Shown here: piece after piece, positions 1-60,405 of the stretch
Layout of the letters: every line of letters starts with the position of its first letter
How positions within the stretch are numbered: position 1 is the first letter of the stretch
Assembly (NCBI GenBank): GCA_030602885.1
Contig: JAUVYV010000011.1
Span: 1-64,000, forward strand
Reading direction: 5' to 3'
DNA: 64,000 nucleotides
Origin: Phycisphaerales bacterium
Lineage (GTDB): Bacteria; Planctomycetota; Phycisphaerae; Sedimentisphaerales; Anaerobacaceae
Notes under the pieces: generated by a model
Told to the model about the DNA's origin: nothing
Seen by the model: only the letters and a program-made list of their open reading frames with translations
Database searches by the model: none
Translations under genes and position numbers: made by a program

Positions 1-175
1 CACTAGCGCAGACCCCGCACTCAGCGTAGTGCGGGGGGAAAAATAAACCGTTGTGGGGTTGTCGGTTTTGGGTATAATGTCGGGGTATGAAAAAGTCGTT
101 AGCATATTTGCCGAATACGGCCAAAAACTGCACGAAGTGACTGAAAAGATTTGTAAGGAGAAGATCGAAAGCTTT
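1..175 (+). repeat. Repeat I, copy A (hairpin plus promoter-like unit)
   Basis: This stretch recurs in inverted orientation at 24966-25140 with only scattered mismatches. It opens with a perfect hairpin: a 9-bp stem at 13-21 and 28-36 (CCCCGCACT / AGTGCGGGG) with a 6-nt loop. Next comes a promoter-like pair, TTGTGG at 51-56 and TATAAT at 73-78, kept in both copies. It lies upstream of the ATPase gene at 367, as copy B lies upstream of the gene at 24392-24910. The left end may extend beyond the window. Confidence 0.85.
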
Positions 176-181
176 GTTTAG
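77..181 (+). CDS. 34-codon ORF inside repeat I, doubtful
   Basis: An ATG-initiated 34-codon frame lies inside the repeat, and the frame is also open over 34 codons in the inverted copy at 24961-25065. The two differ at about eight amino acids and a few silent sites, so strong protein-level conservation is not evident. The ATG overlaps the TATAAT-like box and has no ribosome binding site, so it is probably not translated as read. It could be the beheaded start of a formerly longer protein. Confidence 0.2.
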   Translation: MSGYEKVVSIFAEYGQKLHEVTEKICKEKIESFV

Positions 182-265
182 TACCGCGTTTCATACGGTT
201 TCCTCATCATTTAGGGGTTTTAGTCCACCACACGGGGCTTTATTACCTCAAATTGTTGCTGGAAA

Positions 266-282
266 AAGATTTGACAAATCTT
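266..282 (+). promoter_or_regulatory. Dyad overlapping a -35-like TTGACA
   Basis: A perfect 8-1-8 palindrome (AAGATTTG A CAAATCTT) contains TTGACA at 271-276. No good -10 box lies at 17 nt, so promoter function is unproven. A dyad over a -35-like element, about 85 bp before the ATPase start, would suit a repressor site controlling the pair at 367-2062. Confidence 0.35.
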
Positions 283-366
283 CTAAAATCACCCAAAATC
301 CACTTTTACTTTATACTATGCTCAGAAGAATGTTGAAGACCCCTTAATTTCAAAGGACACATTAAA

Positions 367-1443
367 ATGATAACAGATGTTCTGATTAGAAATTTTAAAT
401 GCTTCAAGAGCCTCACCGTTCCTGAACTTGGCCGCATAACACTAATTTCAGGTCGAAACAATGTAGGTAAAACCGCTCTGCTCGAAGCTCTTTTTCTTTT
501 CCTGGATCAGCGTAATCCGACTACGGTTCTAAATCAATATAGTCGGCGCGGAATTAAACAAATTACTCTAACAACTGAAGCAATATGGGACCCAATATTT
601 TGCGATTATGCTAAGGATAAGAAAATCCTTATTTCTTTAACTAAAAATGGCAACCCTGAACAAATAACAGTTCGGTTTAATCGAGAATTTGCACCTCCAC
701 CTCCAATGACGGTCCAAACTGGAGAACAGCAAATATCTACAGATGAGGAACTTACTATTGTAGCTGTGGAAATTGAATACGCCGCCAAATCAGGTGAAAA
801 AATCATTCTATCCCATTTCTGTGACCCCAATAATCGAAACCTCCCTACTGTTGTATCTAAAACAATACCTTCTAAAATTCCATTACAGTTGGCCAGTTTT
901 TTGTCAAGTAAAGAGCACAACCCACCAAATGAAATTGCAAATCAATTCGGCAAATTAGCACAACAGGATCGGGAAAACGAAGCTGTCGAATTTCTCAGGA
1001 TAATTGAGCCTCGGCTTGAAAACCTCAAAATCATCACAGAAGGCCCAAATTCACTTGTTCATGGCAAACTCAAAGGCGACATGCATACTCGTCCAATCAA
1101 TTTTATGGGTGAAGGCATGGAAAAACTTCTGGCTCTTATAGTTGCTATCACACATTCGCCTAACCGTATCATTCTTCTTGATGAAATGGAAAATGGTCTG
1201 CATTATTCTATTTTGCCAAAGATTTGGGAGGCTCTTGGCAAAGCACTGCGCAAATATGACTGCCAGCTTATCACAACAACTCATAGCTACGAATGCCTTC
1301 GAGCTGCACACGAAGGTCTTTCCGAAATGCCAGAGGACTTCAGATATATCCGCCTGCATCGGAAAGACGATGACATATCCGCCAAACTTTCAAACTATGA
1401 TATGATCGGTACTGCAATGAAAACAAATCTGGAGGTAAGATAA
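367..1443 (+). CDS. AAA/ABC-type ATPase of the OLD-like class
   Basis: A 358-residue cytoplasmic ATPase. Walker A is GRNNVGKT at residues 29-36, right after an SMC/ABC-like first strand. Walker B is ILLDE near 269-273, followed by NGLH, and a TTTHS histidine-switch motif lies near 303-307. This arrangement is typical of AAA_15/AAA_21 ATPases found in OLD nucleases and in split defence systems such as PARIS. The next gene starts 2 bp after this stop and is TOPRIM-like, so the pair probably makes a two-protein ATPase-nuclease. AAGGA precedes the ATG. The gene is AT-richer than the 4-16 kb genes, which fits transfer. A defence role is inference. Confidence 0.8.
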   Translation: MITDVLIRNFKCFKSLTVPELGRITLISGRNNVGKTALLEALFLFLDQRNPTTVLNQYSRRGIKQITLTTEAIWDPIFCDYAKDKKILISLTKNGNPEQITVRFNREFAPPPPMTVQTGEQQISTDEELTIVAVEIEYAAKSGEKIILSHFCDPNNRNLPTVVSKTIPSKIPLQLASFLSSKEHNPPNEIANQFGKLAQQDRENEAVEFLRIIEPRLENLKIITEGPNSLVHGKLKGDMHTRPINFMGEGMEKLLALIVAITHSPNRIILLDEMENGLHYSILPKIWEALGKALRKYDCQLITTTHSYECLRAAHEGLSEMPEDFRYIRLHRKDDDISAKLSNYDMIGTAMKTNLEVR

Positions 1444-1444
1444 T

Positions 1445-2062
1445 TTGTCCAAACCCGAACCGATAACCCAGAAAAAACTTCTTCTTGCAGAAGGCCGAGA
1501 CGCTGAACTATTTCTTGTATGGGCGGGAAGATACTTTTGTAGTGAGAGAGACTTTCAAGTAATGGACTTTGGAGGCATTAAGGAGTTAACTAATTTTCTC
1601 AAATTGTTAACTAACGACGAATCCTATGACAATGTTGAAACCATAGTAGTAGCTCGTGACGCTGAAACGGATGCTAAAGCTGCAACAAGCAGCATTCAAC
1701 ATTCTATGACGCAGGCAAATATGCCGGTGCCACAAAAACCTTTTGAGTACACACAAAATTCTTCTGTGAAAACCGCATTTATGATTTTTCCAGGCCCTGA
1801 ACACCGAGAGGGTCGACTAGAAGACCTCTGTCTTTTAACAGTCGAAGACGATCCTTTATTGGAATGTGTGGATGATTATTTGGAATGTGCAAAGGCCAAA
1901 AACGAACCGCTTCCGCGTATCCACAAGAGCAAGCTTCATTGTTTTTTAGCAGGGAAAAAAGATTATGCTGGCTTACCTATCGGATTAGCGTCGCGTGAAC
2001 ACGCCTGGGATTTTGACCATCCTACATTAAAACCATTTAAGAGAATTATCCAAGAAATGTAA
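1445..2062 (+). CDS. TOPRIM-like DUF3226-type protein
   Basis: A 205-residue protein starting at TTG, supported by GGAGG nine bases upstream inside the end of the ATPase gene. The N-terminus has the TOPRIM-like glutamate (E16 in LLLAEGRDAEL), and a central acidic cluster ARDAETD supplies D72, E74 and D76, as expected for a metal-binding TOPRIM fold. The overall pattern resembles DUF3226. Coupled to an OLD-like ATPase, it is most simply the nuclease half of a split system, analogous to the AriA/AriB organisation of PARIS although a different DUF. Family assignment is from memory of motifs, and the function is inferred. Confidence 0.65.
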   Translation: MSKPEPITQKKLLLAEGRDAELFLVWAGRYFCSERDFQVMDFGGIKELTNFLKLLTNDESYDNVETIVVARDAETDAKAATSSIQHSMTQANMPVPQKPFEYTQNSSVKTAFMIFPGPEHREGRLEDLCLLTVEDDPLLECVDDYLECAKAKNEPLPRIHKSKLHCFLAGKKDYAGLPIGLASREHAWDFDHPTLKPFKRIIQEM

Positions 2063-2079
2063 TATACCCACCCCCGCCC

Positions 2080-2140
2080 TTGCCGTCAAAGCAAATACCT
2101 TGAATTAATCCCGCAGATTCATATAATTGCAACACAAGAG
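2080..2140 (+). repeat. Repeat II, copy A
   Basis: About 60 bp just after the TOPRIM-like gene matches the reverse complement of 24289-24360 almost base for base, including the shared start TTGCCGTCAAA and an AATTAATCCCGCA core. In the other copy it also lies directly downstream of a cargo gene (24392-24910), so repeats I and II bracket different genes at the two sites. Confidence 0.8.
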
Positions 2141-2159
2141 ATTAGATGAGTACGCCAGT

Positions 2160-2187
2160 GGCGTATAAAACTGTATAATCGTTGTTG
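2160..2187 (+). promoter_or_regulatory. Repeated promoter-like unit upstream of the DUF6868-like gene
   Basis: A 28-bp unit beginning GGCGTATAAAA carries TATAAT at 2174-2179. It recurs with two mismatches at 2735-2762, upstream of the next small gene. A short inverted repeat (CGCCAGTGGCG) lies immediately 5'. No clear -35 box is seen. The placement before two different short genes suggests a repeat-borne promoter. Confidence 0.4.
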
Positions 2188-2214
2188 TATGCAGAAAGAT
2201 AAAGGAGAAATATC

Positions 2215-2457
2215 ATGGATATCGAGACACTAACAACATTCTTTATGTGGTGTACGATTCTGAACGCAGCATTGCTGGTTCTCTCGTCGCTGATCTGTGT
2301 CTGTGCCAGAGACTGGGTCTATCGAGCACACAGCAAATGGTTCCCCATTCCAAAAGAGGCCTTCAACGTGGCGATATACTCGTTCATCGGACTGTACAAG
2401 ATATTGGTCATAACGTTCAATCTTATTCCCTACATAGCTTTGTCGATCATCGGATAA
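2215..2457 (+). CDS. Small membrane protein, DUF6868-like
   Basis: An 80-residue protein with two hydrophobic segments, about residues 8-30 and 52-78, joined by a charged stretch containing the RAHSKWF motif. This fits the small DUF6868 membrane proteins of unknown role. The start is supported by AAAGGAG a few bases upstream of ATG. It lies between repeats II and III, which are adjacent in the inverted copy near 24.3 kb, so this gene and its promoter unit look inserted into, or lost from, an otherwise shared frame. Confidence 0.6.
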   Translation: MDIETLTTFFMWCTILNAALLVLSSLICVCARDWVYRAHSKWFPIPKEAFNVAIYSFIGLYKILVITFNLIPYIALSIIG

Positions 2458-2517
2458 ATTGGACGAGTCCTTCGACCCGTTCGGCTACGCTCAGGGCAGG
2501 CTGTGCTCAGGATAAAT

Positions 2518-2640
2518 CCGCCATCCCGCCAGTGGCGGGTAAAAGGCGGATAAATATTGAAGAAGCAGCCGTGCTACGGCAGGCTCTCGTCTCGGCGTAG
2601 CGAGCCGTAGCCGGGCCGCCCTGACGAGCGGGAACTTGTT
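2518..2640 (+). repeat. Repeat III, copy A (REP-like palindromes)
   Basis: A GC-rich segment of short palindromes (CCCGCCAGTGGCGGG and others). It shares long blocks with the reverse complement of 24190-24285, including the core CGGATAAATATTGAAGAA and the end GAGCGGGAACTTGTT. A fragment of the core also appears near 23478-23500. No ORF here looks genuine. Confidence 0.75.
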
Positions 2641-2734
2641 ATACAGAAATAAACAGTCTGTCCCCCGCCAGAGGCAAGCGGGGACAAGCTTTGGCGTTTA
2701 ATACAGTACGGTGGCCCGCCAGAGGCGGGTAAAA

Positions 2735-2762
2735 GGCGTATAAAATTGTATAATCATTGTTG
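2735..2762 (+). promoter_or_regulatory. Second copy of the repeated promoter-like unit
   Basis: This matches 2160-2187 in 26 of 28 positions, with TATAAT at 2749-2754, and is preceded by the palindrome CCCGCCAGAGGCGGG. It stands about 80 bp ahead of the exported-protein gene at 2844, as the first copy stands ahead of the gene at 2215. Confidence 0.4.
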
Positions 2763-2843
2763 GGCTTCTGGAGCCAAAGATAGATGACAGTTACTCTATC
2801 AGATTGTAGTTGACAACTTTATCAAGATAGGAGGTTTGTTACA

Positions 2844-3329
2844 ATGAAAAAGAAAATAATAATCATCCTGAAAATAATAATCACCCTGCTGCTCATCAGC
2901 CCGATTGTGATTTTTGCTTATGAAGTATTTTACCCACGGCCAAAAATAGCTCCTCCACAAGCTCTGGTTGGAGCATGGGAAACTGAGTTTGGGACTCGCT
3001 TTGGCAAATCTCAGGTTATTTTTAATCTTTACGAAGATGGAACTGTTGAAGGTACAGTTGGTGATGCTACCATGCAAGATGCATATTTCAGCAGAAACCG
3101 TGGCTGGCTATTCAGAAGTCTGGGTTGGGCAACGGAATACGTTATCGTAGGCGGTTTGAACGGTTCGGTAATCAGTGAAGTCCAGTGTGCTAAATTCTGG
3201 ATAGTGGGTGACTTCGACGAAAAGGGGATAAGGGCGGATATTGACTGCGATGAATGTTGGAAGGACGGAAAGAAGCACGGTCCGTTTGGTGACGGCCCTT
3301 TGATTTATACTCGCGTGGAACAACCTTAG
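2844..3329 (+). CDS. Membrane-anchored protein of unknown function
   Basis: A 161-residue protein not recognised as a family. It begins with a lysine-rich tip and a strong hydrophobic segment (about residues 5-26), either a signal anchor or an uncleaved signal peptide, followed by a short proline-rich linker. The remainder is a soluble, probably beta-rich domain with a GAWETEFG motif near residue 48 and two cysteines in CDEC near the end. The ATG is preceded by AGGAGG. It is in the repeat-rich accessory patch with no functional partner visible. Confidence 0.6.
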   Translation: MKKKIIIILKIIITLLLISPIVIFAYEVFYPRPKIAPPQALVGAWETEFGTRFGKSQVIFNLYEDGTVEGTVGDATMQDAYFSRNRGWLFRSLGWATEYVIVGGLNGSVISEVQCAKFWIVGDFDEKGIRADIDCDECWKDGKKHGPFGDGPLIYTRVEQP

Positions 3330-23549: not shown

Positions 23550-24146
23550 CTATCGGGCATTTATCCCAAAAGGGAGTATGAAGAAAAAATCCCTGCGCTT
23601 GGATCCAGATTGCTCAGACTCAGAAATCTTTGTCCCAGAATCATAGTCTATTCCGCTCTTACAGTGGAAAACAAGCTTTCCGCCTGAATAGTGAAATTCT
23701 TCCATTTTTGGCCTATAGAAGCCGCTTTCGACGTTGGTCTGCCATGCAAGTCTTGCTTCTGCCACCATGGTATTCGATTTGTCGACGGCAACAATTCCTT
23801 TCAAAAGAGTGCTGTCGTAAATGAAATAATTCGAAAAGTCGCCAAACTCGTGTGCATAGAAAATATCTGGACCACCCATGCCCATCATTCTACCTGAAAA
23901 CGGCTGCTTGCTGGTATAAACTAAGGGCATCTTGCCTTTATAGTACTTCGGCCTTAGATTTAGTTCATGCGTGTACTGTACTTGTACGGCATTTCCTGAC
24001 CTTTTGTTAATCTGAAGGTCATCCAACTTCCAAATAGGCCATATCTGCTGCAATTCATCAGATACATCCTTCTTCTTACAACCACTATTTAGTAGAACGA
24101 TTGTCATAACAACAGACAGTGCGATTGCGAGTTTTCGAGTAGTCAT
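23550..24146 (-). CDS. Predicted lipoprotein of unknown function
   Basis: A 198-residue protein with a lipoprotein signal: basic start, hydrophobic stretch, then LNSGC giving lipidated Cys23, followed by a KKK run. The mature part is rich in aromatic residues and shows no recognised domain. It lies directly downstream of repeat III of the inverted frame, in the position occupied in copy A by the exported protein at 2844, but the two are not similar by eye. The lipidation site is clear; function is unknown. Confidence 0.65.
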   Translation of the reverse strand: MTTRKLAIALSVVMTIVLLNSGCKKKDVSDELQQIWPIWKLDDLQINKRSGNAVQVQYTHELNLRPKYYKGKMPLVYTSKQPFSGRMMGMGGPDIFYAHEFGDFSNYFIYDSTLLKGIVAVDKSNTMVAEARLAWQTNVESGFYRPKMEEFHYSGGKLVFHCKSGIDYDSGTKISESEQSGSKRRDFFFILPFGINAR

Positions 24147-24189
24147 TATCGTTTCCCCTTAAGTCTAATAATGATTGTACCATCTGTTT

Positions 24190-24360
24190 AACAAGTTCCC
24201 GCTCGTCAGGGCGGAGCCTGCCGTAGCACGGTTGGTTCTTCAATATTTATCCGCCTTTTACCCGCCCTTTGTTTGGCGGGATGACGGACTCATCCAATCT
24301 TCTGTGTTGTAATTATATGAATATGCGGGATTAATTCAAGGTATTTCTTTTGACGGCAAG
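24190..24360 (-). repeat. Repeats III and II, copy B, inverted relative to 2.1-2.6 kb
   Basis: 24190-24285 matches repeat III (2518-2640) and 24289-24360 matches repeat II (2080-2140), both as reverse complements. Here the two are adjacent, whereas in copy A the DUF6868-like gene and its promoter unit lie between them. Confidence 0.8.
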
Positions 24361-24391
24361 TGCAGGGTAATGCGTATGCTTCACCCGATAG

Positions 24392-24910
24392 TCAGAGTTC
24401 TTTTTTGTCTCTCATATCTACAAGCTTTCGCCAGTCTATGCAGGATGCTAGAGTTCGAAAACACTCCAGATCCATGACTCGCCCTTTTCTGCGCCATTTG
24501 TTTTGGAACCGCTCAAATTCCTGTTCTATCTTTGCAAAAATTTGTTCCGAAGATTCATCGGGGAAGAAATGAATCTCAAAAGCTTTTCCAAGATACTTGA
24601 TCTGATTACGGGATTTTCGGTGGAAACGTTTTCCAGCCATCCACCACAGATCTCCACGGATCTGTGATCCGAGGATGTACAACCGCATCCATCCAATAAC
24701 TTGGTTGTAGTGCCAAGGGCCACCATAGGTTTCCCAGAAATGCTGTTTCGTGTTCAGACGAGTGGTCTCGGGAACCTTATCGCGTACGAACCCACTCAAT
24801 TTCTCGAATCGCTCCCAATGGTGCTGCAGAGCACTATCATACTTTTGGTTGAATCGCTCATGACTGATGCGGTAAATTGGTATCTCAAAAAAAAATCGGT
24901 TGAGGAGCAA
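24392..24910 (-). CDS. Unknown 172-residue protein in the inverted repeat frame
   Basis: A soluble, aromatic- and basic-rich protein (RISHERFNQKYDSALQHHWE near the start, GGPWHYNQVIGWMRLYI in the middle). No family recognised. The start is TTG with a perfect AGGAGG eight bases upstream, a strong sign it is translated. It occupies the site between repeats I and II that in the other copy holds the ATPase/TOPRIM pair, so it may be an alternative accessory or defence cargo; that is inference from position only. Confidence 0.65.
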   Translation of the reverse strand: MLLNRFFFEIPIYRISHERFNQKYDSALQHHWERFEKLSGFVRDKVPETTRLNTKQHFWETYGGPWHYNQVIGWMRLYILGSQIRGDLWWMAGKRFHRKSRNQIKYLGKAFEIHFFPDESSEQIFAKIEQEFERFQNKWRRKGRVMDLECFRTLASCIDWRKLVDMRDKKEL

Positions 24911-24965
24911 TTCTGTTACCTCCTATAATTTTGGATTGTCCAATATGATAATATACAACATTATG

Positions 24966-25140
24966 TAAAGCTTTTGATTTTCTCCTTACAAATCCTTTCT
25001 GTTATTTCGTGTAGTTTTTGGCCGTATCCGGCAGATGTGCTAACGACTTTTTCATATCCCGCCATTATACCCAAAACCGACGAGCCCACAACAGTTTATT
25101 TTCCCCCCGCACTACGCTGAGTGCGGGGTCTGCGCTAGTG
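24966..25140 (-). repeat. Repeat I, copy B (inverted)
   Basis: The reverse complement of 1-175 with roughly 25 differences, keeping the 9-bp hairpin, the TTGTGG/TATAAT pair and an open 34-codon frame (24961-25065). It lies upstream of the gene at 24392-24910. Confidence 0.85.
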
Positions 25141-25327
25141 CTACGACTTTGCACAACTTCATCTTCCAAACTTGTCCCTACCTGAAGGGGATCCGGCTTA
25201 AACAAAACCCAACTCCCAAATCAGCATCCCATCTTAATCTTCGCGTCTATTCGTGAAAACCTGTCCTGAGCTTGTCGAACGGATCCGTGGTTCCCAATCT
25301 AATTCGTGCCAATTCGTGGTGGCCATC

Positions 25328-32316: not shown

Positions 32317-33924
32317 ATGTTGATTATCCAAAACATGGCGATTAAGCACAAACTGATGGCGATTATGATGCTGACATGCGTCGCCGCACTGCTGTTGGTC
32401 GGGACAGCTTTCGTCTTCTGGGGGTGGACAGTTCACAAAAACGATATTCTGCAGGACCTTTTGGTGCAGGCGGAGATGACGGCGAACAACTGCAAGGCGG
32501 CTCTGGCGTTCGCAGACACAAAAGACGCCGAGGAAATGCTAAAGACACTCAGGGCCGAATCGTCCATCATGCTTGGCTGTGTGTACACCAGGACCGGAGA
32601 GGTATTTGCAACCTACCATCGCAACGGGTACGATGCACCTGAGCTTCCTGTACAGATCAAGACAGCCGGATACGACTTCCGTGATGGATCTCTCACCGTC
32701 TTTAAGCCCATCGTGCTCGACAACGAGACTATCGGAAGCGTCTGCCTCCGCTCAGATCTGAGCCCCATGTATCGGGCATTAAAACGCAACGCTGAAAACA
32801 CAATCGCAGTCCTGCTGCTCGCCTCCCTTGCTGCTTACTTCATCTCGTCAAAGCTTCAGAGCATCATATCGAAACCGATTCTCAGTCTCGCCGAGGTGGC
32901 AAAGGAAGTTTCTGAAAAGCGGGACTACTCCGCTCGAGCCGTGAAACAGAGTAATGATGAGGTCGGCCTGCTCATCGACGCATTCAACGAAATGCTGGAG
33001 CAGATTCAGCAGCGTGATTCAGAATTGGTCAAAGCCAAAGAAGAACTCGAGCTGAGAGTACAGGAACGCACTTCCGAACTGACTACCGCAAACGAGCATC
33101 TCACCGGCGAGATCGCAGAACGTGAAAAAGCCGAACGCAAGCAGGCCGAGTTGCTCAAAGAGCTTGAAAGTGTCAATCAGGAGCTTAGGGATTTTGCCTA
33201 TATCGCATCTCACGACCTTAAAGCACCGCTGAGAGCCATCAAGACGCTCGCCGAATGGATTAACACCGACTATGCCGATAAACTCGACGACGACGGAAAA
33301 GAACAGCTCCGGCTGCTCGGCTCGCGCGTTGCCAGAATGCACAATCTGATAGAGGGCATCCTTCAGTATTCGAGAGTCGGCCACGTCAATGAGAAAACAG
33401 CAGAGGTCAACCTTGCCAAGCTCATCCCAGAGATTATCGACATGGTCGCTCCGCCTGAAAACATCACTGTGACCGTCGAAAATGAGCTACCTGTCATCAA
33501 ATGCGAAGAAACCCGAATCATGCAGGTCTTCCAGAACATCCTCAGCAACGCCGTCAAATATATGGATAAGCCACAGGGCATAATAAAGATGGGCTGTGTG
33601 CAGGAGGGTGGGTTCTGGAAGTTCAGCGTTTCCGATAACGGTCCCGGCATCGAAGAAAAGTACTTCGACAAAATCTTCAAGATATTCCAGACGCTCTCTG
33701 CAAGAGATGAGTTCGAAAGCACCGGCGTCGGTCTGAGCGTGGTCAAGAAGACTGTCGAACTTTTCGGCGGAAAAATCTGGCTCGAATCCGAAATCGGCAA
33801 GGGTACAACCTTCTTCTTTACTTTCCCGCTGGAAGGCGTTCAGGATTACACAGGTGAAGGCGAAGAGGTCACCGTGACCGCAGAATCGGACCAGGAAAAC
33901 GGAGACGACAACAACGAAAGCTGA
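32317..33924 (+). CDS. CHASE8-HAMP sensor histidine kinase
   Basis: 535 residues. Transmembrane helix about 13-35, an extracytoplasmic CHASE8-like domain (CKAALAFADTKDAEEML, GEVFATYHRNG), a second membrane helix about 158-178, HAMP, a coiled coil (about 230-285), HisKA with His near 298 (ASHDLKAPLRAIK), and HATPase (NILSNAVKYM, SDNGPGI, ESTGVGLSVVKK). CHASE8 is the sensor domain of YfiN-type proteins, and the gene starts 6 bp after the YfiR-like gene, so YfiR-like control of this kinase is likely. The HATPase is of the phytochrome-like group that pairs with Rcp1-type receivers. Confidence 0.88.
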   Translation: MLIIQNMAIKHKLMAIMMLTCVAALLLVGTAFVFWGWTVHKNDILQDLLVQAEMTANNCKAALAFADTKDAEEMLKTLRAESSIMLGCVYTRTGEVFATYHRNGYDAPELPVQIKTAGYDFRDGSLTVFKPIVLDNETIGSVCLRSDLSPMYRALKRNAENTIAVLLLASLAAYFISSKLQSIISKPILSLAEVAKEVSEKRDYSARAVKQSNDEVGLLIDAFNEMLEQIQQRDSELVKAKEELELRVQERTSELTTANEHLTGEIAEREKAERKQAELLKELESVNQELRDFAYIASHDLKAPLRAIKTLAEWINTDYADKLDDDGKEQLRLLGSRVARMHNLIEGILQYSRVGHVNEKTAEVNLAKLIPEIIDMVAPPENITVTVENELPVIKCEETRIMQVFQNILSNAVKYMDKPQGIIKMGCVQEGGFWKFSVSDNGPGIEEKYFDKIFKIFQTLSARDEFESTGVGLSVVKKTVELFGGKIWLESEIGKGTTFFFTFPLEGVQDYTGEGEEVTVTAESDQENGDDNNES

Positions 33925-33947
33925 TACCGACAAGCGAATGTGCTGAA

Positions 33948-34175
33948 ATGAAAATAAGACAGAAAATAACGCTGGGATTTGTTGGCATTGCCCTGCTGAT
34001 TGGCCTGGTCGAATACGTCTGTCTCTCTGCAAGCCAAAAAGCCCTGCTTAACAACAAGCTTTCAAAAGAACTCGTCAAGAACACGAAATCTGCTGAAGAT
34101 AAACGCGGCCATCCGATATTCTCACAGCCGTGCAGGGGAAGCACTTTTCTCTTCACGTTGCCAAAGAAGATGTAA
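33948..34175 (+). pseudogene. Sensor kinase collapsed by an internal deletion
   Basis: A 75-codon frame starts like a full sensor kinase (MKIRQKITLGFVGIALLIGL, a membrane helix and linker to about residue 50) and ends with RGSTFLFTLPKKM, the usual last strand of a HATPase domain. Everything between is absent. This indicates an in-frame deletion that removed the sensory and catalytic core of a kinase formerly paired with the receiver starting at 34187. Confidence 0.6.
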
Positions 34176-34186
34176 GGAACGTACAG

Positions 34187-34648
34187 ATGCAAAACTTAAA
34201 GCCGATATTGCTGGTCGAAGACGACCATGTGGATGCAATGACCGTCAGAAGGGCTTTTAGAGACCTGAGCATCACAAACATACTCATTCGCTCGGTCAAC
34301 GGCGAGGAGGCCCTCAATTACCTGTCTAATGAGAAAAGCCCTAAACCATTTCTCATACTGCTCGATTTGAACATGCCGAAGATGAACGGCATTGAGTTCT
34401 TAAAGATAATAAAGGCCGACGACAGACTCAAGAAAATCCCGGTTGTCGTGCTTACCACCTCGCAAGAGAAACGAGATGTTGTGCGGAGTTTTGACCTCGG
34501 TGCCGCCGGGTATATGGTCAAGCCGGTGGATTATGCAAGATTCGTTGAGATTATAGACACGGTCCTTCTTTACTGGAGAACAAGCGAATTACCCAAACAG
34601 GATTCACCAATTGCGGACGCGGAGGTGCAGGCTGCTGCCACGCGTTGA
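34187..34648 (+). CDS. Rcp1-like single-domain response regulator 1
   Basis: 153 residues; receiver only. EDDHVDAMTVRRAF at the front, phospho-acceptor Asp in ILLDLNMPKMNG, Thr-Thr in VVLTTS and Lys in VKPVDY. It belongs to the Rcp1/phytochrome-associated class, not the OmpR type of the gene at 28641. AAGGA lies eight bases before this ATG; the longer frame from 34130 overlaps the collapsed kinase. It is one of four close paralogues in this cluster. Confidence 0.88.
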   Translation: MQNLKPILLVEDDHVDAMTVRRAFRDLSITNILIRSVNGEEALNYLSNEKSPKPFLILLDLNMPKMNGIEFLKIIKADDRLKKIPVVVLTTSQEKRDVVRSFDLGAAGYMVKPVDYARFVEIIDTVLLYWRTSELPKQDSPIADAEVQAAATR

Positions 34649-34687
34649 CGCCGACGATATGCTTTTCATCGCCATGAGAGAAACTGA

Positions 34688-35956
34688 ATGAAAACTGAAC
34701 AAACAGAGAAAGCCCAGATATCCGCCGTTCCTTGCTCTGCTGACGGCGGTGCCGGTCTCCGAACGGATCACAACTCCATGAGCAAGACAAAAATACGCGA
34801 AAGCCAAAACGCACATCTCAAAAGGTCCGAATCCGAACGCGAGCAGGTTGAAGGAGCCCTGATAAAAGCACTGCAGCAATGGGAAACAACCTTTAATGCT
34901 ACAAGTGATTCGACTATGCTGGTGGACAACGAATTCAAGGTCATTCAGGCAAATACCGCCACGGCAAACCTGCTTGACAGGCCCCTCGGGCAAATTCTCG
35001 GAAAAACCTGCCACTCTCTCCTGCACGGAACAGATGCTCCCCCCAAAGAATGTCCCCTCATCAAGGCAAAGCAAACCAAAAAACATCAGGAAAGCGAGCT
35101 GTATATCCCTTCGAAGGACGTATGGATTACCGTATCGGCCGACCCCATTTTCGACGACGAAGGCAACATAATCCGCTTTGTCCATCTCGTCAGGAACATC
35201 ACTGAACGCAAAAAGTCCGAGCAGGCTCTCCAGAAGCTAAACAAAGACCTCGACCAGACTGTAAAGGAATTGCAGCGCTCAAACGAGGAGCTTCGCAGTT
35301 TCGCCCATGTGATAGCGCACGACCTCAAATCACCTCTCCGGGGAATCGGAGCACTCGCCGACTGGCTGCTGAGAAAATATAGGGACAGATTCGACAAACA
35401 GGGCAAAAGACGCGTCAATCTGCTCATAGGAAGAGTAAGGCGATTATCCGAACTGATCGACAGCATCCTGCGATATTCTGAAATAGGGCACGTCGTCGAA
35501 AAGAAAGACGACGTTGACCTCAGCACACTCTTGGCTGAGATAATATGCGAAATCAACCTGCCAACCAACATCGAATTTTCTATCGAAGACAAACTGCCGA
35601 CTCTCAAATGTGAAAGAGTCCGGCTAAAGCAGATATTCCAGAACCTGCTCAGCAATGCAATCAAGTACATGGATAAGCCGAAAGGGAAAATCAGTATCGG
35701 CTGTACAGAGGAAAACGGATTCTGGAAATTCAGCGTCGCTGATAATGGCCCCGGAATCAACGAGGCATACTTCGAAAAAATATTTGAAATCTTCCAGACC
35801 CTGGTCCCGCGAGACCAGGTCGAAAGTACAGGTGTGGGACTGACCGTTGTCAAAAAAATCGTCGAATTGTACGGAGGTAAAGTCTGGCTCACCTCCGAAC
35901 CGGGCGAAGGAACTACCTTCTTCTTTACAATGCCAAAGCAAGAAAGTGAGGATTAA
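34688..35956 (+). CDS. PAS-domain histidine kinase, soluble
   Basis: 422 residues without membrane spans. Coiled-coil start (about 40-65), a PAS domain (about 65-175) with a Cys pair (CHSLLHGTDAPPKEC) of the type that can hold a cofactor, HisKA with His near 210 (IAHDLKSPLRGI) and a HATPase with NLLSNAIKYM, ADNGPGI and ESTGVGLTVVKK. The catalytic half is very like that of the CHASE8 kinase, so the two probably arose by duplication. It is flanked by Rcp1-like receivers on both sides. Confidence 0.87.
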   Translation: MKTEQTEKAQISAVPCSADGGAGLRTDHNSMSKTKIRESQNAHLKRSESEREQVEGALIKALQQWETTFNATSDSTMLVDNEFKVIQANTATANLLDRPLGQILGKTCHSLLHGTDAPPKECPLIKAKQTKKHQESELYIPSKDVWITVSADPIFDDEGNIIRFVHLVRNITERKKSEQALQKLNKDLDQTVKELQRSNEELRSFAHVIAHDLKSPLRGIGALADWLLRKYRDRFDKQGKRRVNLLIGRVRRLSELIDSILRYSEIGHVVEKKDDVDLSTLLAEIICEINLPTNIEFSIEDKLPTLKCERVRLKQIFQNLLSNAIKYMDKPKGKISIGCTEENGFWKFSVADNGPGINEAYFEKIFEIFQTLVPRDQVESTGVGLTVVKKIVELYGGKVWLTSEPGEGTTFFFTMPKQESED

Positions 35957-35959
35957 AAA

Positions 35960-36412
35960 ATGCCACGTGCAAAACCAATATTGCTGCTTGAGGACGATAT
36001 TGTCGACGCATCGACAATTACTCAGACCGTCGAGGATCTCAAGGTCAAGAATGAACTGATCCACAGAACCGACGGGGAGCTGGGCCTCGAATATCTGAAG
36101 GACCCGTCTCACAAAAAACCCGGATTGATTCTCCTCGACCTCAACATGCCGAAAGTCAACGGCATCGAATTCCTCCGGGCAATAAAGTCCGACAGGGAAC
36201 TCAGGAAGATTCCTGTCGTGGTACTGACCGTCTCAAAGTACGAAAAGGACAAATTCGACACCTTCGGGCTTGGGGTCGCCGGCTACGTCGTAAAACCCGT
36301 TGACTACGATACTTTTCTCGAATCTATGAATACCGTTATCCAGTATTGGATGTGGAACGATTTAGTTGACCAGGAAAGGCAGGAAAGGAAAGTTGAAAAT
36401 GCGAAACTCTAA
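35960..36412 (+). CDS. Rcp1-like single-domain response regulator 2
   Basis: 150 residues; receiver only, starting 3 bp after the PAS kinase. EDDIVDASTITQTV, phospho-acceptor Asp in ILLDLNMPKVNG, VVLTVS and VKPVDY. It departs most from its paralogues: TVS replaces TTS near the active-site Thr, and the surrounding helix differs. This pairing suggests it is the cognate of the kinase just upstream. Confidence 0.87.
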   Translation: MPRAKPILLLEDDIVDASTITQTVEDLKVKNELIHRTDGELGLEYLKDPSHKKPGLILLDLNMPKVNGIEFLRAIKSDRELRKIPVVVLTVSKYEKDKFDTFGLGVAGYVVKPVDYDTFLESMNTVIQYWMWNDLVDQERQERKVENAKL

Positions 36413-36860
36413 ACCAATATTTCTGGTTGAGGACGACAACGTTGACGCAATGACCGTCAAGCGAGCGCTCAAGGACCTGAAGGTCACCAACCCTCTGGTC
36501 CGGGCCGCCAACGGAGAAGAGGCCCTGGACTACCTAAGGAACGACGCAAATGAGAAACCATGCGTTATTCTGCTCGACCTGAATATGCCCAAGATAAACG
36601 GCATCGAGTTCCTCAAGGTTGCCAAGGCCGACGAGGCCCTTAAGAGAATCCCTGCAGTAGTCCTGACCACCTCCAAAGACGACAGAGACAAAGTCGAGAG
36701 CTTCGATCTCTGTGTCGCAGGTTATATCGTCAAACCCGTCGATTACAGAAAATTCGTTGATGCAATTAAGATAGTCGACCTCTATTGGACACTCAGCGAG
36801 CTGCCGTCTCATGAACAGGAGAATGAAAATGCGAAGCTTGAAACCAATATTGCTCATTGA
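36399..36860 (+). CDS. Rcp1-like single-domain response regulator 3
   Basis: 153 residues; receiver only, very similar to the next gene. EDDNVDAMTVKRAL, phospho-acceptor Asp in ILLDLNMPKINGIEFL, VVLTTS and VKPVDY. The ATG at 36399 overlaps the previous gene by 14 bp and follows GGAAAGTTGAAA. Overlap and similarity indicate tandem duplication with coupled translation. Confidence 0.87.
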   Translation: MRNSKPIFLVEDDNVDAMTVKRALKDLKVTNPLVRAANGEEALDYLRNDANEKPCVILLDLNMPKINGIEFLKVAKADEALKRIPAVVLTTSKDDRDKVESFDLCVAGYIVKPVDYRKFVDAIKIVDLYWTLSELPSHEQENENAKLETNIAH

Positions 36861-37251
36861 AGATGACGATGTCGATGCAATGACCGTCAAACGCGCCCTG
36901 AAGGAGCTCAAGGTCACAAATCGGCTCGTTCACAAAACCAATGGCGAAGAGGGATTGAATCACCTCAACAACGCAAACGGCAAAAACCCCTGCGTTATCC
37001 TGCTCGACTTAAACATGCCCAAAATGGGCGGTATTGAGTTCTTAAGAATCACAAAAGCCGATGAAGAGCTCAGGAAAATACCCGTCATTGTTCTTACCAC
37101 TTCCAGGAGCGAGCAGGACAAGGTGGAAAGCTTCGACCTTTCCGTCGCCGGCTACATCGTCAAGCCGACCGACTACACTAAGTTCGTCGATGCAATAAAG
37201 ACCGTTGACCTTTACTGGACTTTAAGCGAGCTACCCACCAATGGCGGATGA
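36829..37251 (+). CDS. Rcp1-like single-domain response regulator 4
   Basis: 140 residues; receiver only. EDDDVDAMTVKRAL, phospho-acceptor Asp in ILLDLNMPKMGGIEFL, IVLTTS and VKPTDY. It overlaps the preceding paralogue by 32 bp; AGGAG lies eight bases before this ATG. Its own end overlaps the hybrid kinase start by 11 bp, so the receivers and the kinase are translated as a tightly coupled set. Confidence 0.86.
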   Translation: MRSLKPILLIEDDDVDAMTVKRALKELKVTNRLVHKTNGEEGLNHLNNANGKNPCVILLDLNMPKMGGIEFLRITKADEELRKIPVIVLTTSRSEQDKVESFDLSVAGYIVKPTDYTKFVDAIKTVDLYWTLSELPTNGG

Positions 37252-38797
37252 AAACACTGAAGCGACTACGTACAGAATTCTGATGGTCGAAGATGACCGG
37301 CTCGACCAGATGGCCTTCAAGCGTATGGTCAAAGAGCAAAACCTGCGCTACGACTATACTATTGCAGGGTGCGTCTCCGAAGCCAAGGAAATTCTAAGCA
37401 GAGAAAATTTCGATATCGTTTTTGTTGACTACCTGCTCGGAGACGGAACTGCATTTGACATTCTCGAATCAATAGCTGACGTTCCCACCGTCTTCGCCAC
37501 CGGTACGGGAAGCGAAGAGCTCGCCGTCAAAGCCATGAAATCCGGCGCATCCGACTATCTGATAAAAGACCCCGCACGAAATTACCTGAAGGTGCTGCCC
37601 GAGGTCATAAAGAACGCCATCCGTCACAAAAAGGCGGAAGACGAGCTCAAAAGATACCACGAGAACCTCATCGATCTCGTCAAAGAAAGGACCGAACAGC
37701 TCGCAGAAGAAAAGGAGCTCCTGGCAGTGACACTCTCCAGCATGGGCGATGCCGTCATCGCCGTTGATGCCGAGAACAAAATCATACTCTTCAACAAAGC
37801 CGCCGAAAAGCTTACCGGCTGGAAATTTGACGAGGTCCACCTAAAACCCATCGACGAGGTATTCAGCATCATTGATGAGCAGACGAAGCAGCCCGTAGAA
37901 AGCCCTATCGACAAGGTTCTGATATCGCGTAATATTGAGTCCGGCAGCGATCACGATGCGCTTGCAGCAAGATTCGGCCGGCAATGCCCCATCTCAGCTA
38001 CCGCCGCGCCTATCAGAAAAGATGACGGCACTATGACAGGCATCGTTATGGTCTTTCGAGACGTCTCACAAAAACGTGAAATCGACCGTATGAAATCCGA
38101 TTTCATCTCATCGGTATCGCACGAGCTGAGAACCCCGCTAACCTCGATAAAGGCCTATACCGAGACTATCCTTTACGACCGAAATATGCCCGAGGAAACC
38201 CAGCGCGAGTTTCTCCGGATTATTGATGAAGAATCCGACTGTCTCGCAGACCTCATCAACGGCTTACTCGATATATCACGCATGGAATCCGGCAATCTCG
38301 AAATCGTCCGCGAGCCCGTCGACGTTCTCGCAGTTATTGACTGCACCATGAGCGATATGCGAGCACTTGCGCAAAAAAAGAAGGTCGACCTCGAGCTAAA
38401 CGTCCCACAACAGCTGCCCGAACTGATCGGAGACGAGAACAAAATCCAGTCGATGATCTCGAACCTCATAAATAATGCAATAAAGTTCACCCCTGAAAAC
38501 GGCCGAGTCGTCCTCTCAGCCACCACCACCACAGACCGGCAGCTCGTCATAAAAGTCAGCGATACCGGTATGGGCATACCGACGGAAGACCTGCCGAAAA
38601 TATTCGGCCGTTTCTACCGTGTGTACCGGCCCGGAAAGCAAATACAGGGAACAGGGCTCGGTCTGGCCATCGTCAAAGAAATCGTCGTCAGGCACGATGG
38701 AAGAATCGAAGTCGAAAGCGAGCTCGACAAAGGTACCACATTCACAGTCTGGCTGCCTCTGACCCCGCAGCAGGCGCCTCTACCTGTCTCCGCTTAG
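37241..38797 (+). CDS. Hybrid sensor kinase: receiver-PAS-HisKA-HATPase
   Basis: 518 residues, soluble. The N-terminal receiver (about 10-125) has EDDRLD and the phospho-acceptor Asp in IVFVDYLLGDG. A coiled coil leads to a PAS domain (about 155-275), then HisKA with His near 293 (SSVSHELRTPLTSIKAY) and a HATPase with SNLINNAIKF, SDTGMGI and GTGLGLAIVKE. With the receiver at the front it can receive phosphate from another kinase, such as those upstream, and relay it. The catalytic half is of the ordinary HPK1 type, unlike the two Rcp1-partner kinases. Confidence 0.88.
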   Translation: MADENTEATTYRILMVEDDRLDQMAFKRMVKEQNLRYDYTIAGCVSEAKEILSRENFDIVFVDYLLGDGTAFDILESIADVPTVFATGTGSEELAVKAMKSGASDYLIKDPARNYLKVLPEVIKNAIRHKKAEDELKRYHENLIDLVKERTEQLAEEKELLAVTLSSMGDAVIAVDAENKIILFNKAAEKLTGWKFDEVHLKPIDEVFSIIDEQTKQPVESPIDKVLISRNIESGSDHDALAARFGRQCPISATAAPIRKDDGTMTGIVMVFRDVSQKREIDRMKSDFISSVSHELRTPLTSIKAYTETILYDRNMPEETQREFLRIIDEESDCLADLINGLLDISRMESGNLEIVREPVDVLAVIDCTMSDMRALAQKKKVDLELNVPQQLPELIGDENKIQSMISNLINNAIKFTPENGRVVLSATTTTDRQLVIKVSDTGMGIPTEDLPKIFGRFYRVYRPGKQIQGTGLGLAIVKEIVVRHDGRIEVESELDKGTTFTVWLPLTPQQAPLPVSA

Positions 38798-44793: not shown

Positions 44794-46533
44794 ATGGCCG
44801 CTTTACTTGTACTTGTTATCGTCGCGGGCTGTGCCGCCTTTCAATACTTCAAAGGCACCTTCCTTAGGGCATTTGTCATGCTCATCACCGCTGTCGCTGC
44901 GAACATCGTTGCATTCTCATACTTCGAGCCGCTCGCCAATGTCCTCATCAATCGCGAAAACATCCCGCTCTGGGCACAGTCGTTCGCCTTCCTGCTTCTC
45001 TTTGTCGCGACATTCGCCGTCCTGCTAATCCCCGCCGTCTTACTCACGCGCAAAGCCGTTGACCTCGGAACCGTACCGGAGCAAGCCGGAAGAATCGTCC
45101 TCGGTCTCGTCATAGGCCTTGTCGTCTCAGGCACTTTCCTTACCGCACTCGCACTCGCTCCCCTCTCCAATACTGTCCCTTACCGGCGCTTTGATACCCG
45201 CCTGCAGAATATCGACAGCCCCAAAAAGTCCTTGCTCAATACCGACGGCCTCACTACAGGACTGTTCGGCATCATCAGCAGGGGGACCCTCAGCGGGAAA
45301 AAAAGTTTTGCCGCCCTGCACCCCGACTTCCTCAACCAGGTATTCCTCAATCGCCACCCTGACCCTGACAAAGTCCCTCTCATCACTACCCCCGACGCAC
45401 TCCAGGTTCCCGCTAAAGCCGCCGTTTGGCCCGCACCCGATGGACTCACCGACCAGTCGGCCAGGCCTGTCTCCTCCATAGCGGGCCACACCCTCATGTT
45501 CGTGCGCGTCGGATTCCCCACAAGAGCACTAAAGCACGCCTCTCCTTTCACTATCTCACAGCTCAGGGCAGTCTGCAAACCCGCCGACGATAAACGCCCA
45601 CTCGCCGGCAAAGGCCTCGCCCTTCACCCAGCCGGGTATCTTAGAACCATTAACTCCATACAGACCGCTCAGCCCGATGACACCATCAAGCTCACAAGGG
45701 CCGACATCAAAACAAGCCCCCGCTGGATTGACTTCGCCTTCCAGGTCCCCGATAACTTCGAACCCGTACTCCTAGAATTCAAGGCAAACGCAATCGTACA
45801 ACTGCCCCCTGCCGTTGCCGCCGACCAGACGCCTCAGCCGCAGCCCTTTATCGCAGCCGCAAGCTGCACATCATACCTTGCAAAGCTCCCAGCCGCAAAG
45901 TCCGCCAAACTCTACGGCCTTGAGCTCGCCGCAGGTGACAAGTTCCTCGCAGACCTCGACCTGCCCGTCGCAGACCAAAACGATTTCCAGAACGTCCAGA
46001 CCTCTCGCAGCACCATGCCCGCTCAGTTCGACAATGGAAAAATCACATGCACAAAGGCCGAGCTGAAAATCCCCAAACCCGCCGAACAGAACGAACAGAA
46101 TGGCGACGACGCCAGAGAAAATCAAAACCTCCCCGAAATGCTAAAGCCTGCCGACAAATATACCCTGCTCTCCCTCAAATGCAACAACCCCGACACCGGC
46201 TCTGCAATCACCGGCACTAAGCTGCCTGTCCTTGAAGACATAAGCGGTATTCTCCACTGGCCCGTCGGCATCATCGCATCCGCCCAGGCAGACGACGCAA
46301 CCATATACCAGCTCGACTTCTGCTCACTCACCGACGCTGCAATCCAAATAGACGACTCCGGCGCCGTCGCCGCCCCCTTTGTTGACTCTGTCTGGCTCAC
46401 CGCACAGGCACAGACAATCTCCCAGTTCTATCTAATTTACATGGTAAAGCCGGATACTACTATAGTCTCCGTCCGTCCCCCTGCACAATCCGCCATCACA
46501 TTCGAAAACACTGCAGGATTTCTGGTTAACTAA
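44794..46533 (+). CDS. CvpA-like membrane protein with a long C-terminal domain
   Basis: 579 residues. The N-terminal 130 or so contain four hydrophobic helices (about 2-20, 24-42, 60-85, 100-125), arranged as in CvpA (colicin V production) proteins, including the AGRIVLGLVIGLVVSG segment. The remaining 450 residues are soluble, Pro/Ala/Asp-rich and without a known domain. CvpA proteins are normally about 160-180 residues, so the tail is a lineage-specific addition. It is third in line with the PilT and degenerate PilB-like genes. A MITE begins at the base after its stop codon. Confidence 0.65.
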   Translation: MAALLVLVIVAGCAAFQYFKGTFLRAFVMLITAVAANIVAFSYFEPLANVLINRENIPLWAQSFAFLLLFVATFAVLLIPAVLLTRKAVDLGTVPEQAGRIVLGLVIGLVVSGTFLTALALAPLSNTVPYRRFDTRLQNIDSPKKSLLNTDGLTTGLFGIISRGTLSGKKSFAALHPDFLNQVFLNRHPDPDKVPLITTPDALQVPAKAAVWPAPDGLTDQSARPVSSIAGHTLMFVRVGFPTRALKHASPFTISQLRAVCKPADDKRPLAGKGLALHPAGYLRTINSIQTAQPDDTIKLTRADIKTSPRWIDFAFQVPDNFEPVLLEFKANAIVQLPPAVAADQTPQPQPFIAAASCTSYLAKLPAAKSAKLYGLELAAGDKFLADLDLPVADQNDFQNVQTSRSTMPAQFDNGKITCTKAELKIPKPAEQNEQNGDDARENQNLPEMLKPADKYTLLSLKCNNPDTGSAITGTKLPVLEDISGILHWPVGIIASAQADDATIYQLDFCSLTDAAIQIDDSGAVAAPFVDSVWLTAQAQTISQFYLIYMVKPDTTIVSVRPPAQSAITFENTAGFLVN

Positions 46534-46666
46534 TACCAAGTCAAGTTAATTATTGCGCCCCATTGTCATTCCCGCGAAAGCGGGAATCCAGTTTGCCGTA
46601 ACATGCAGTGAGAATAATACCATGAACCGCCATTACACTAAGCGCACTTACTAAGTTGACTTGGTA
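46534..46666 (+). repeat. MITE-like element with TACCAAGTCAA termini, copy 1
   Basis: 133 bp bounded by perfect 11-bp inverted termini (TACCAAGTCAA / TTGACTTGGTA) with TA on the flank, and an inner palindrome ATTCCCGCGAAAGCGGGAAT. Almost identical to 60268-60399 in the same orientation. TA flanks suggest mobilisation by a Tc1/mariner or IS630-type transposase. Confidence 0.85.
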
Positions 46667-46677
46667 TAAGCTTCTCC

Positions 46678-60257: not shown

Positions 60258-60267
60258 AACCTTCTAA

Positions 60268-60399
60268 TACCAAGTCAAGTTAATTATTGCGCCCCATTGT
60301 CATTCCCGCGAAAGCGGGAATCCAGTTTGCCGCAACATGCAGTGAGAATAATACCTGAACCGCCATTACACTAAGCGCACCTACTAAGTTGACTTGGTA
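60268..60399 (+). repeat. MITE-like element with TACCAAGTCAA termini, copy 2
   Basis: 132 bp, nearly identical to 46534-46666 and in the same orientation, with the same 11-bp inverted termini and inner palindrome. It is inserted between kdsD and kdsC, just upstream of the kdsC start (minus strand). Confidence 0.85.
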
Positions 60400-60405
60400 T
60401 AAAAT

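Follow-up and report, generated by a model that had tools for sequence, protein, structure and literature searches.

Promoter-like repeat leaders ahead of varying, often defence-type genes suggest modular accessory-gene cassettes in a Phycisphaerales genome

Introduction

Why should the same three repeats stand twice in one contig, in the same order and on opposite strands, with different genes between them? The question is raised by a 64,000-nucleotide (nt) stretch of DNA from a Phycisphaerales bacterium, here called the window, which comprises positions 1-64000 of contig C55 of a metagenome-assembled genome (MAG) labelled G000 (3.2 Mb in 128 contigs, completeness 97.6%); window position 1 is contig base 1. 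We propose, with a probability of roughly two in three, that repeats I, II and III belong to modular accessory-gene cassettes, whose leaders and cargo units are exchanged among genera through ordinary recombination. The arrangement has the appearance of a toolkit for exchanging defence genes without known integron machinery. Throughout, C denotes a contig, L a locus and other G numbers related genomes, which were searched as one genome per species; C55a and C55b are the first and second window frames.

Two inverted frames with different contents

Repeats I, II and III occur in identical order on opposite strands at window 1-2665 and 25163-24183, as a preliminary description of this DNA had reported. 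A repeat search of the window returned inverted pairs for repeat I (1-42/25099-25140, 100% identity; 34-175/24967-25108, 89%), repeat II (2072-2157/24282-24367, 87%) and repeat III (2534-2586/24214-24266, 96%). Overall, repeat I is ~91% identical between the two sites (1-175 versus 25140-24967). Chance is excluded because the pairs span 42-175 nt at 87-100% identity and every copy of repeat II lies behind a repeat I on the same strand.

The contents of the frames likewise agree with that description. Between I and II, the first frame holds an AAA_15/AAA_21 ATPase gene followed by a DUF3226 (TOPRIM-type) gene, and the second holds only an open reading frame (ORF) of 172 amino acids (aa), which has no match in Pfam, NCBIfam, PADLOC or PDB. 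Between II and III, a DUF6868 gene (Pfam E-value 1e-28) is present in the first frame; in the second, II adjoins III. Each I-II interval has a gene with a TTG start preceded by GGAGG (1445; 24910 on the reverse strand). The extent of the frames needed revision in two respects: repeat III is longer than claimed, covering ~2458-2665 and followed by another promoter-like stretch and a gene, and the start of repeat I lies beyond the contig edge in the first frame and is seen in full at 25163 and in other copies.

Repeat I retains both ends of an MNT-HEPN gene

Repeat I can be split into an upstream stretch, a hairpin, a promoter-like TTGTGG-N16-TATAAT and a scar. Seven copies from three genomes align without gaps over 109 nt. 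The hairpin folds better than shuffled sequences (Table 1) and is absent at C46, at C7 and in other genera. Repeat I had been credited with providing both a hairpin and a promoter; conserved hexamers uphold the promoter-like part, but the hairpin proved separable and dispensable.

The scar reads MRKSLAHLPEYVQKLHEVTEKICVAKIESFI in a single frame at C19 and contains a one-base shift in most other copies. Searching 298 genomes of the class with a profile of the scar peptide retrieved ORFs of ~260-316 aa in G091, G039, G004 and G073. Those from G091, G039 and G073 read through from an N-terminal K-T/S-L-x-H/Y-LP motif to a C-terminal ...KLHEVTE.ICKEKIESF or near variants, and one parent ORF matches Pfam HEPN (9e-15), Polbeta and NTP_transf_2. 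An intact parent with a matching N-terminus had not appeared in a PF01909 search of eight genomes and was later found by the scar profile. MNT and HEPN domains are both present in the parent genes; repeat I retains the ends only. Judged from its sequence, repeat I is a promoter-like stretch joined to what a deletion of the middle has left of a fused MNT-HEPN gene: ~10 codons from its beginning and ~21 from its end. The scar is identified as MNT-HEPN because the parent ORFs share both ends with repeat I. It is shared by several genera, with an identical junction in G317. C33 and a number of further loci retain nothing of the MNT-HEPN gene except its C-terminal end.

Repeat II contains a promoter-like stretch of its own (TTGAAT-N16-TATAAT in the window), conserved in eight copies spread over five genomes from different genera. 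It starts right at the cargo stop codon in the window, does likewise in G033 and G337 after a restriction gene of the MmeI type, and lies close downstream of an FRG-domain gene in G003. The spacer formed by repeat III is longer, with a variable middle that forms hairpins and, often, a terminal -10-like box ahead of the next gene. By eye, parts of repeat III resemble the MNT-HEPN C-terminal region. A palindromic module, P (TGCCTCGCC...GTGCGAGAGAGTTG), replaces the scar half of repeat I at C33, C84, C96, C103 and C46. Module P is found in six genomes, mostly shortly upstream of accessory genes and at times in tandem (L050, L060, L078-L087).

Dispersal of the frames

Repeat I occurs, whole or in part, at 14 sites in G000: C55 (twice), C125, C69, C79, C19, C60 (twice), C7, C33, C103, C96, C84 and C46, counted as sequence-search matches, among which weak copies may be missed. 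Some of these sites adjoin contig ends, and the second site on C60 (C60b) has the front part of repeat I alone. Repeat II has four copies (both C55 frames, C33 and C46), all of them downstream of a repeat I on the same strand and within ~2.4 kb, an arrangement with a probability of ~1e-9 under random placement. At C33 the order is repeat I, a DUF2971 gene, a 286-aa gene, II, III and a PD-(D/E)XK gene; at C46, repeats I, II and III run directly into one another without cargo and the genes come after III. Repeats I and II therefore enclose other genes each time, and a cargo-less state exists.

According to the preliminary description, the cassette idea would be wrong if I and II occurred mostly apart or always bracketed the same gene. 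In fact, every genomic II accompanies an I and the same gene is never enclosed twice: the I-II intervals contain the AbiL-like/TOPRIM pair, the 172-aa gene, the DUF2971 and 286-aa genes (C33), nothing (C46) and, in another genus, an FRG-domain gene. The proposal of a frame with exchanged accessory genes thus stands, but not as a single unit, since repeat I occurs at ten sites without II, where cargo is followed by other spacers, and cargo units occur in other frames elsewhere. Nor is this a defence island, because the units are scattered singly, on different contigs and beside housekeeping genes.

The neighbourhood of OmpA and NDK contains a repeat I frame in two genera (G000:C46, L031; G003:C53, L236/L176). 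The two frames face opposite ways and differ in cargo; the neighbourhood is possibly a shared hot spot.

Defence-type genes behind repeat I

Seven sites in G000 have cargo from families linked to defence. In addition to the AbiLi-like ATPase and DUF3226 genes of C55a, these are AbiLi with RloB/AbiLii (C125), TcmP with DUF5131 (C69; PADLOC PDC-M30), RiboL-PSP-HEPN with an SNase-like gene (C79), Mrr_cat (C60a, the first site on C60), an HSDR_N-methylase-specificity fusion resembling type IIG enzymes (C103), and DUF2971 (PDC-S31) with PDDEXK_5 (C33). The gene at C60b is lipoprotein-like in appearance and lay outside the family scans. The AbiLi and AbiLii (RloB) pair is present at C125; in the window, the ATPase is partnered by DUF3226, which has a weak PDC-M38B match (E-value 0.0027). 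Among ten genes upstream of repeat I, there was no PADLOC family except an ABC-transporter ATPase matching generic ATPase models.

An enrichment check proposed at the outset bore this bias out: defence families stand behind repeat I at 7 of 14 sites in G000 and in 0 of 8 upstream neighbourhoods (p = 0.02), or p = 0.006 against the same 0 of 8 when five sites from other genera are added (four positive), in a sample that is small and unblinded and in which several PADLOC families are candidates only. We infer that the cargo acts in defence in this genome, a role predicted from family membership.

Leaders and cargo units in other genera

Beyond G000, repeat I precedes an FRG-domain gene, and then II, in G003 (L176/L236), a PDC-M28C-like ATPase gene at L177, and DUF2971 genes in G317 (L180) and in G064, which belongs to another family of the class (L183). 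In a tree of repeat I, the C19 copy groups with those of G003 and G317 (88% identity) rather than with copies from its own genome (82-85%). Repeat I has therefore moved between lineages.

Cargo units recur with matching edges. The AbiL-like/DUF3226 unit (window 249/256-2064) is found in G034 (85% identity), G009 (83%), G027 (76%), G317 (75%) and G050, from another family (73%), and in G013 (84%), where its left end is cut by the contig. Core-gene identity is 76% for G034, 72% for G013 (partial), 74% for G009, 77% for G027 and 74% for G317. Unit identity above that of the core gene therefore indicates recent transfer for G034, G013 and G009, not for G027 and G317. The DUF6868 unit (2164-2466) is 84-89% identical in seven genomes (G023, twice; G003, G331, G019, G164, G014 and G011), as against 66-75% for the core gene or, in G003, the OmpA-NDK region (G019 has no figure). 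The DUF6868 unit is flanked on both sides by III-like sequence in G014 and followed by a palindromic P-type spacer in G023 and G011.

Matches in named records come from Planctomycetota and Phycisphaerae MAGs. Viral contigs, phages and plasmids searched with repeat I, module P and window 1-2700 gave no match, an Rfam scan returned tRNAs as its sole matches, and no description of such leaders was found in the open-access subset of the literature.

Proposed mechanism and alternatives

In the proposed scheme, a leader precedes one to three genes, which form a variable unit and in many cases an anti-phage system. This leader would be either repeat I, comprising a promoter and a ~31-codon MNT-HEPN scar, often with the hairpin ahead, or another promoter-like spacer (II, III or others), and would probably supply transcription of the cargo. 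Leaders and cargo units would pass between genera and recombine, the shared leader or spacer sequence serving as homology by which incoming cargo replaces or joins resident cargo. Joins at short homologies would leave codons of earlier genes behind. Such joins are a proposed fit to the left-over codons seen, namely the MNT-HEPN scar and a ATGCCTCATTCGAAAACC start ahead of the AbiL-like unit in G034, with near variants in G009 and G317. Host recombination, and not a dedicated enzyme, is the likely agent of swapping.

Several observations weigh against this scheme. At L178, repeat I stands ahead of a DUF4185 gene, which is not defence-like, and Pfam and PADLOC scans found no defence-linked family in the cargo of C55b, C19, C7, C84, C96 and C46; half of the G000 cargo lacks one. 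Elsewhere the AbiL-like unit has other flanks, without I or II, and in G317 and G027 its similarity is no higher than that of the core gene. A promoter scan of window 1-2900 gave no excess over shuffles; the prediction that I and II are promoters draws on hexamer conservation, not on the scan. Finally, exchange of cargo is seen by comparing sites and genera, not strains of one species.

The best-surviving alternative, though an unlikely one, is that I, II and III are ordinary dispersed mosaic intergenic repeats and that defence genes collect with them in tolerant, recombination-prone regions without any shared function. G000 has many other intergenic repeat families, the scar frame is broken in most copies, the scar piece alone serves as the spacer at some loci, and repeat I does occur ten times without II. 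The preliminary description had put a similar alternative in terms of repetitive extragenic palindromic (REP) sequences; repeat I is not an anonymous REP, given its promoter-like stretch and MNT-HEPN scar, yet it is dispersed. Ordinary repeats do not readily account for non-coding I and II being 79-88% identical across genera, above the core-gene level, for the placement of repeat I directly ahead of its cargo and oriented towards it, or for the want of defence bias among upstream genes.

A dedicated cassette system is rather improbable. In this explanation, the spacers would be recombination sites of an integrase moving single defence units, integron-like in its working. Its fuller form, equally doubtful, would be a hitherto undescribed Phycisphaerae gene-cassette system that has recombination sites (the II, III and P-type spacers) and a recombinase to itself and trades promoter-equipped defence units across genera at many dispersed chromosomal sites. 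Cargo-unit edges are indeed constant in several genera, III flanks the DUF6868 unit on both sides in G014, and spacer ends are conserved around a variable middle. However, the sequences flanking the AbiL-like unit have no site in common, module P folds no better than shuffles, and attC-like pairs (RYYYAAC ... GTTRRRY with complementary arms) were found neither in the window nor in 13 related frame loci by a script that detected one each in the IntI-bearing G059 and G026. The integron integrase model TIGR02249 has no match above cut-off in G000 and is present in four relatives. An integron was rejected, as attC-like pairs and IntI were both searched for and neither was found. Tyrosine recombinases (33 PF00589 matches in the MAG) were set aside as the cassette enzyme because most are encoded on 3-11 kb contigs whose gene content is virus-like, the exceptions being two XerC/D-like enzymes and a few others.

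That repeat I is a non-autonomous transposon, a mobile promoter resembling a miniature inverted-repeat transposable element (MITE) or a REPIN and inserting ahead of genes while the cargo stays put, is very improbable: repeat I is short, multicopy and internally deleted, a hairpin is present and the C69 cargo is followed by a Y1-transposase-like gene, but the hairpin is dispensable, the cargo is itself horizontally mobile, and a MITE or insertion-sequence identity was rejected since the copies tested have neither terminal inverted repeats nor target-site duplications (apart from a chance 8-nt pair confined to the window copy).

Features of the window and other repeats

Coordinates of both frames and their flanking genes are collected in Table 1.

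Table 1. Elements of the two repeat frames in the window
Feature	Position	Strand	Basis
Hairpin module before repeat I (stem ~13-36)	1-42	+	Fold z -3.05; 100% copy at 25140-25099; extends past contig edge
Repeat I: promoter-like TTGTGG (51-56)-N16-TATAAT (73-78) and MNT-HEPN deletion scar (~87-181)	43-182	+	Copies in own genome and other genera; parent genes
Cargo unit 1: leader, AbiL-like ATPase and DUF3226 genes; right edge is the stop codon	249-2064	+	Edges match in G034, G013, G009, G027, G317, G050
AAA_15/AAA_21 ATPase, AbiLi/PDC-M38A-like	367-1443	+	Pfam; PADLOC AbiLi 1e-55
DUF3226 gene, TTG start after GGAGG	1445-2062	+	Pfam 1.7e-20
Repeat II: promoter-like TTGAAT (2100-2105)-N16-TATAAT (2122-2127)	2065-2157	+	Four own-genome copies; conservation across several further genera
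Cargo unit 2: DUF6868 gene (2215-2457), own -10-like box 2174-2179	2164-2466	+	Edges match at 84-89% in G023 (twice), G003, G331, G019, G164, G014, G011
Repeat III: spacer whose variable middle forms hairpins, running up to next gene	2458-2665	+	Repeat comparison
161-aa gene behind III of first frame, no known family	2844-3329	+	ORF, Pfam scan
Repeat I of second frame, with hairpin and upstream stretch	24955-25163	-	Repeat comparison
172-aa cargo gene, TTG start after GGAGG, no known family	24392-24910	-	ORF, family scans
Repeat II of second frame	24282-24367	-	Repeat comparison
Repeat III of second frame, immediately after II	24183-24300	-	Repeat comparison
198-aa lipoprotein-like gene after III of second frame, no Pfam family	23550-24146	-	ORF, Pfam scan

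Elsewhere in the window, two 140-nt copies (46530-46669 and 60264-60402) are 98-99% identical and MITE-like, with terminal inverted repeats of ~20 nt (TTATACCAAGTCAACTTA...); the first copy is followed by a long tandem array with a 7-nt unit. Window 33173-37335 contains diverged tandem duplications (59-68% identity between copies), which are probably repeated coding units. The shared blocks downstream at C33 (27.1-28.7 kb; L021:7090-8700) were set apart as a separate composite intergenic repeat family with ~90 genome matches, encoding QNEPN-like peptides. A Y1 transposase gene resembling REP-associated tyrosine transposases (RAYT; PF01797, 6e-5) lies at G000:C69:13945-14436 (L023:6946-7437), directly behind the C69 cargo and within a REP-like array. 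Some 28 contigs of 3-11 kb in G000, including C70, C123, C74, C100, C21 and C36 (L127-L129, L133, L136, L140), each encode one small tyrosine recombinase (~200-300 aa), often a ParB-like protein, and shared structural-looking proteins; they appear to be diverse small virus-like replicons binned with the MAG.

Comparison with known systems

REPIN/RAYT systems (PMC8049555) resemble what is seen here in that the genome has palindromic repeats and one RAYT-like Y1 gene, but that gene sits in another repeat family, and the three repeats of the frame do not appear to be REP doublets. HEPN-MNT toxin-antitoxin modules have been described as two genes (PMC7641770, PMC11586414); both domains also occur in the gene whose ends make up part of repeat I, but that parent gene is one fused ORF, of which only the ends are left. 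If the proposed scheme is right, toxin-antitoxin gene debris has been turned into a reusable module for expression and exchange. The cargo of C55a and C125 resembles AbiL and RloAB-type pairs (PADLOC AbiLi, PDC-M38), in which an AbiLi/PDC-M38A ATPase gene is followed by a small partner gene, although the window partner is DUF3226 and its defence role is a prediction.

The closest working likeness appears to be putative mobile promoters combined with integron-like cassettes. Putative mobile promoters reportedly take part in promoter propagation in prokaryotes. As with these, near-identical promoter-like intergenic sequences precede unrelated genes in one genome: homologous promoter-like regions stand ahead of non-homologous genes, their promoter activity being predicted from conserved hexamers. 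Unlike them, the leaders here cross genera, bear a gene-deletion scar and mostly precede defence-type genes, and the cargo moves too. As in integron cassettes and sedentary chromosomal integrons, small accessory units that include defence genes are exchanged behind shared non-coding modules; here, however, they lie at 14 dispersed places without attC-like sites or an integrase above cut-off, and several have a promoter-like stretch of their own. Defence genes are known to be exchanged through islands, phage satellites, transposons and integrons. The present arrangement, if correctly read, would instead consist of single units scattered along the chromosome behind a few interchangeable promoter-like leaders, with leaders and cargo recombining across genera. 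Roughly half of the cargo belongs to no known family, and the leaders would then provide a sequence tag for new anti-phage genes in Planctomycetes.

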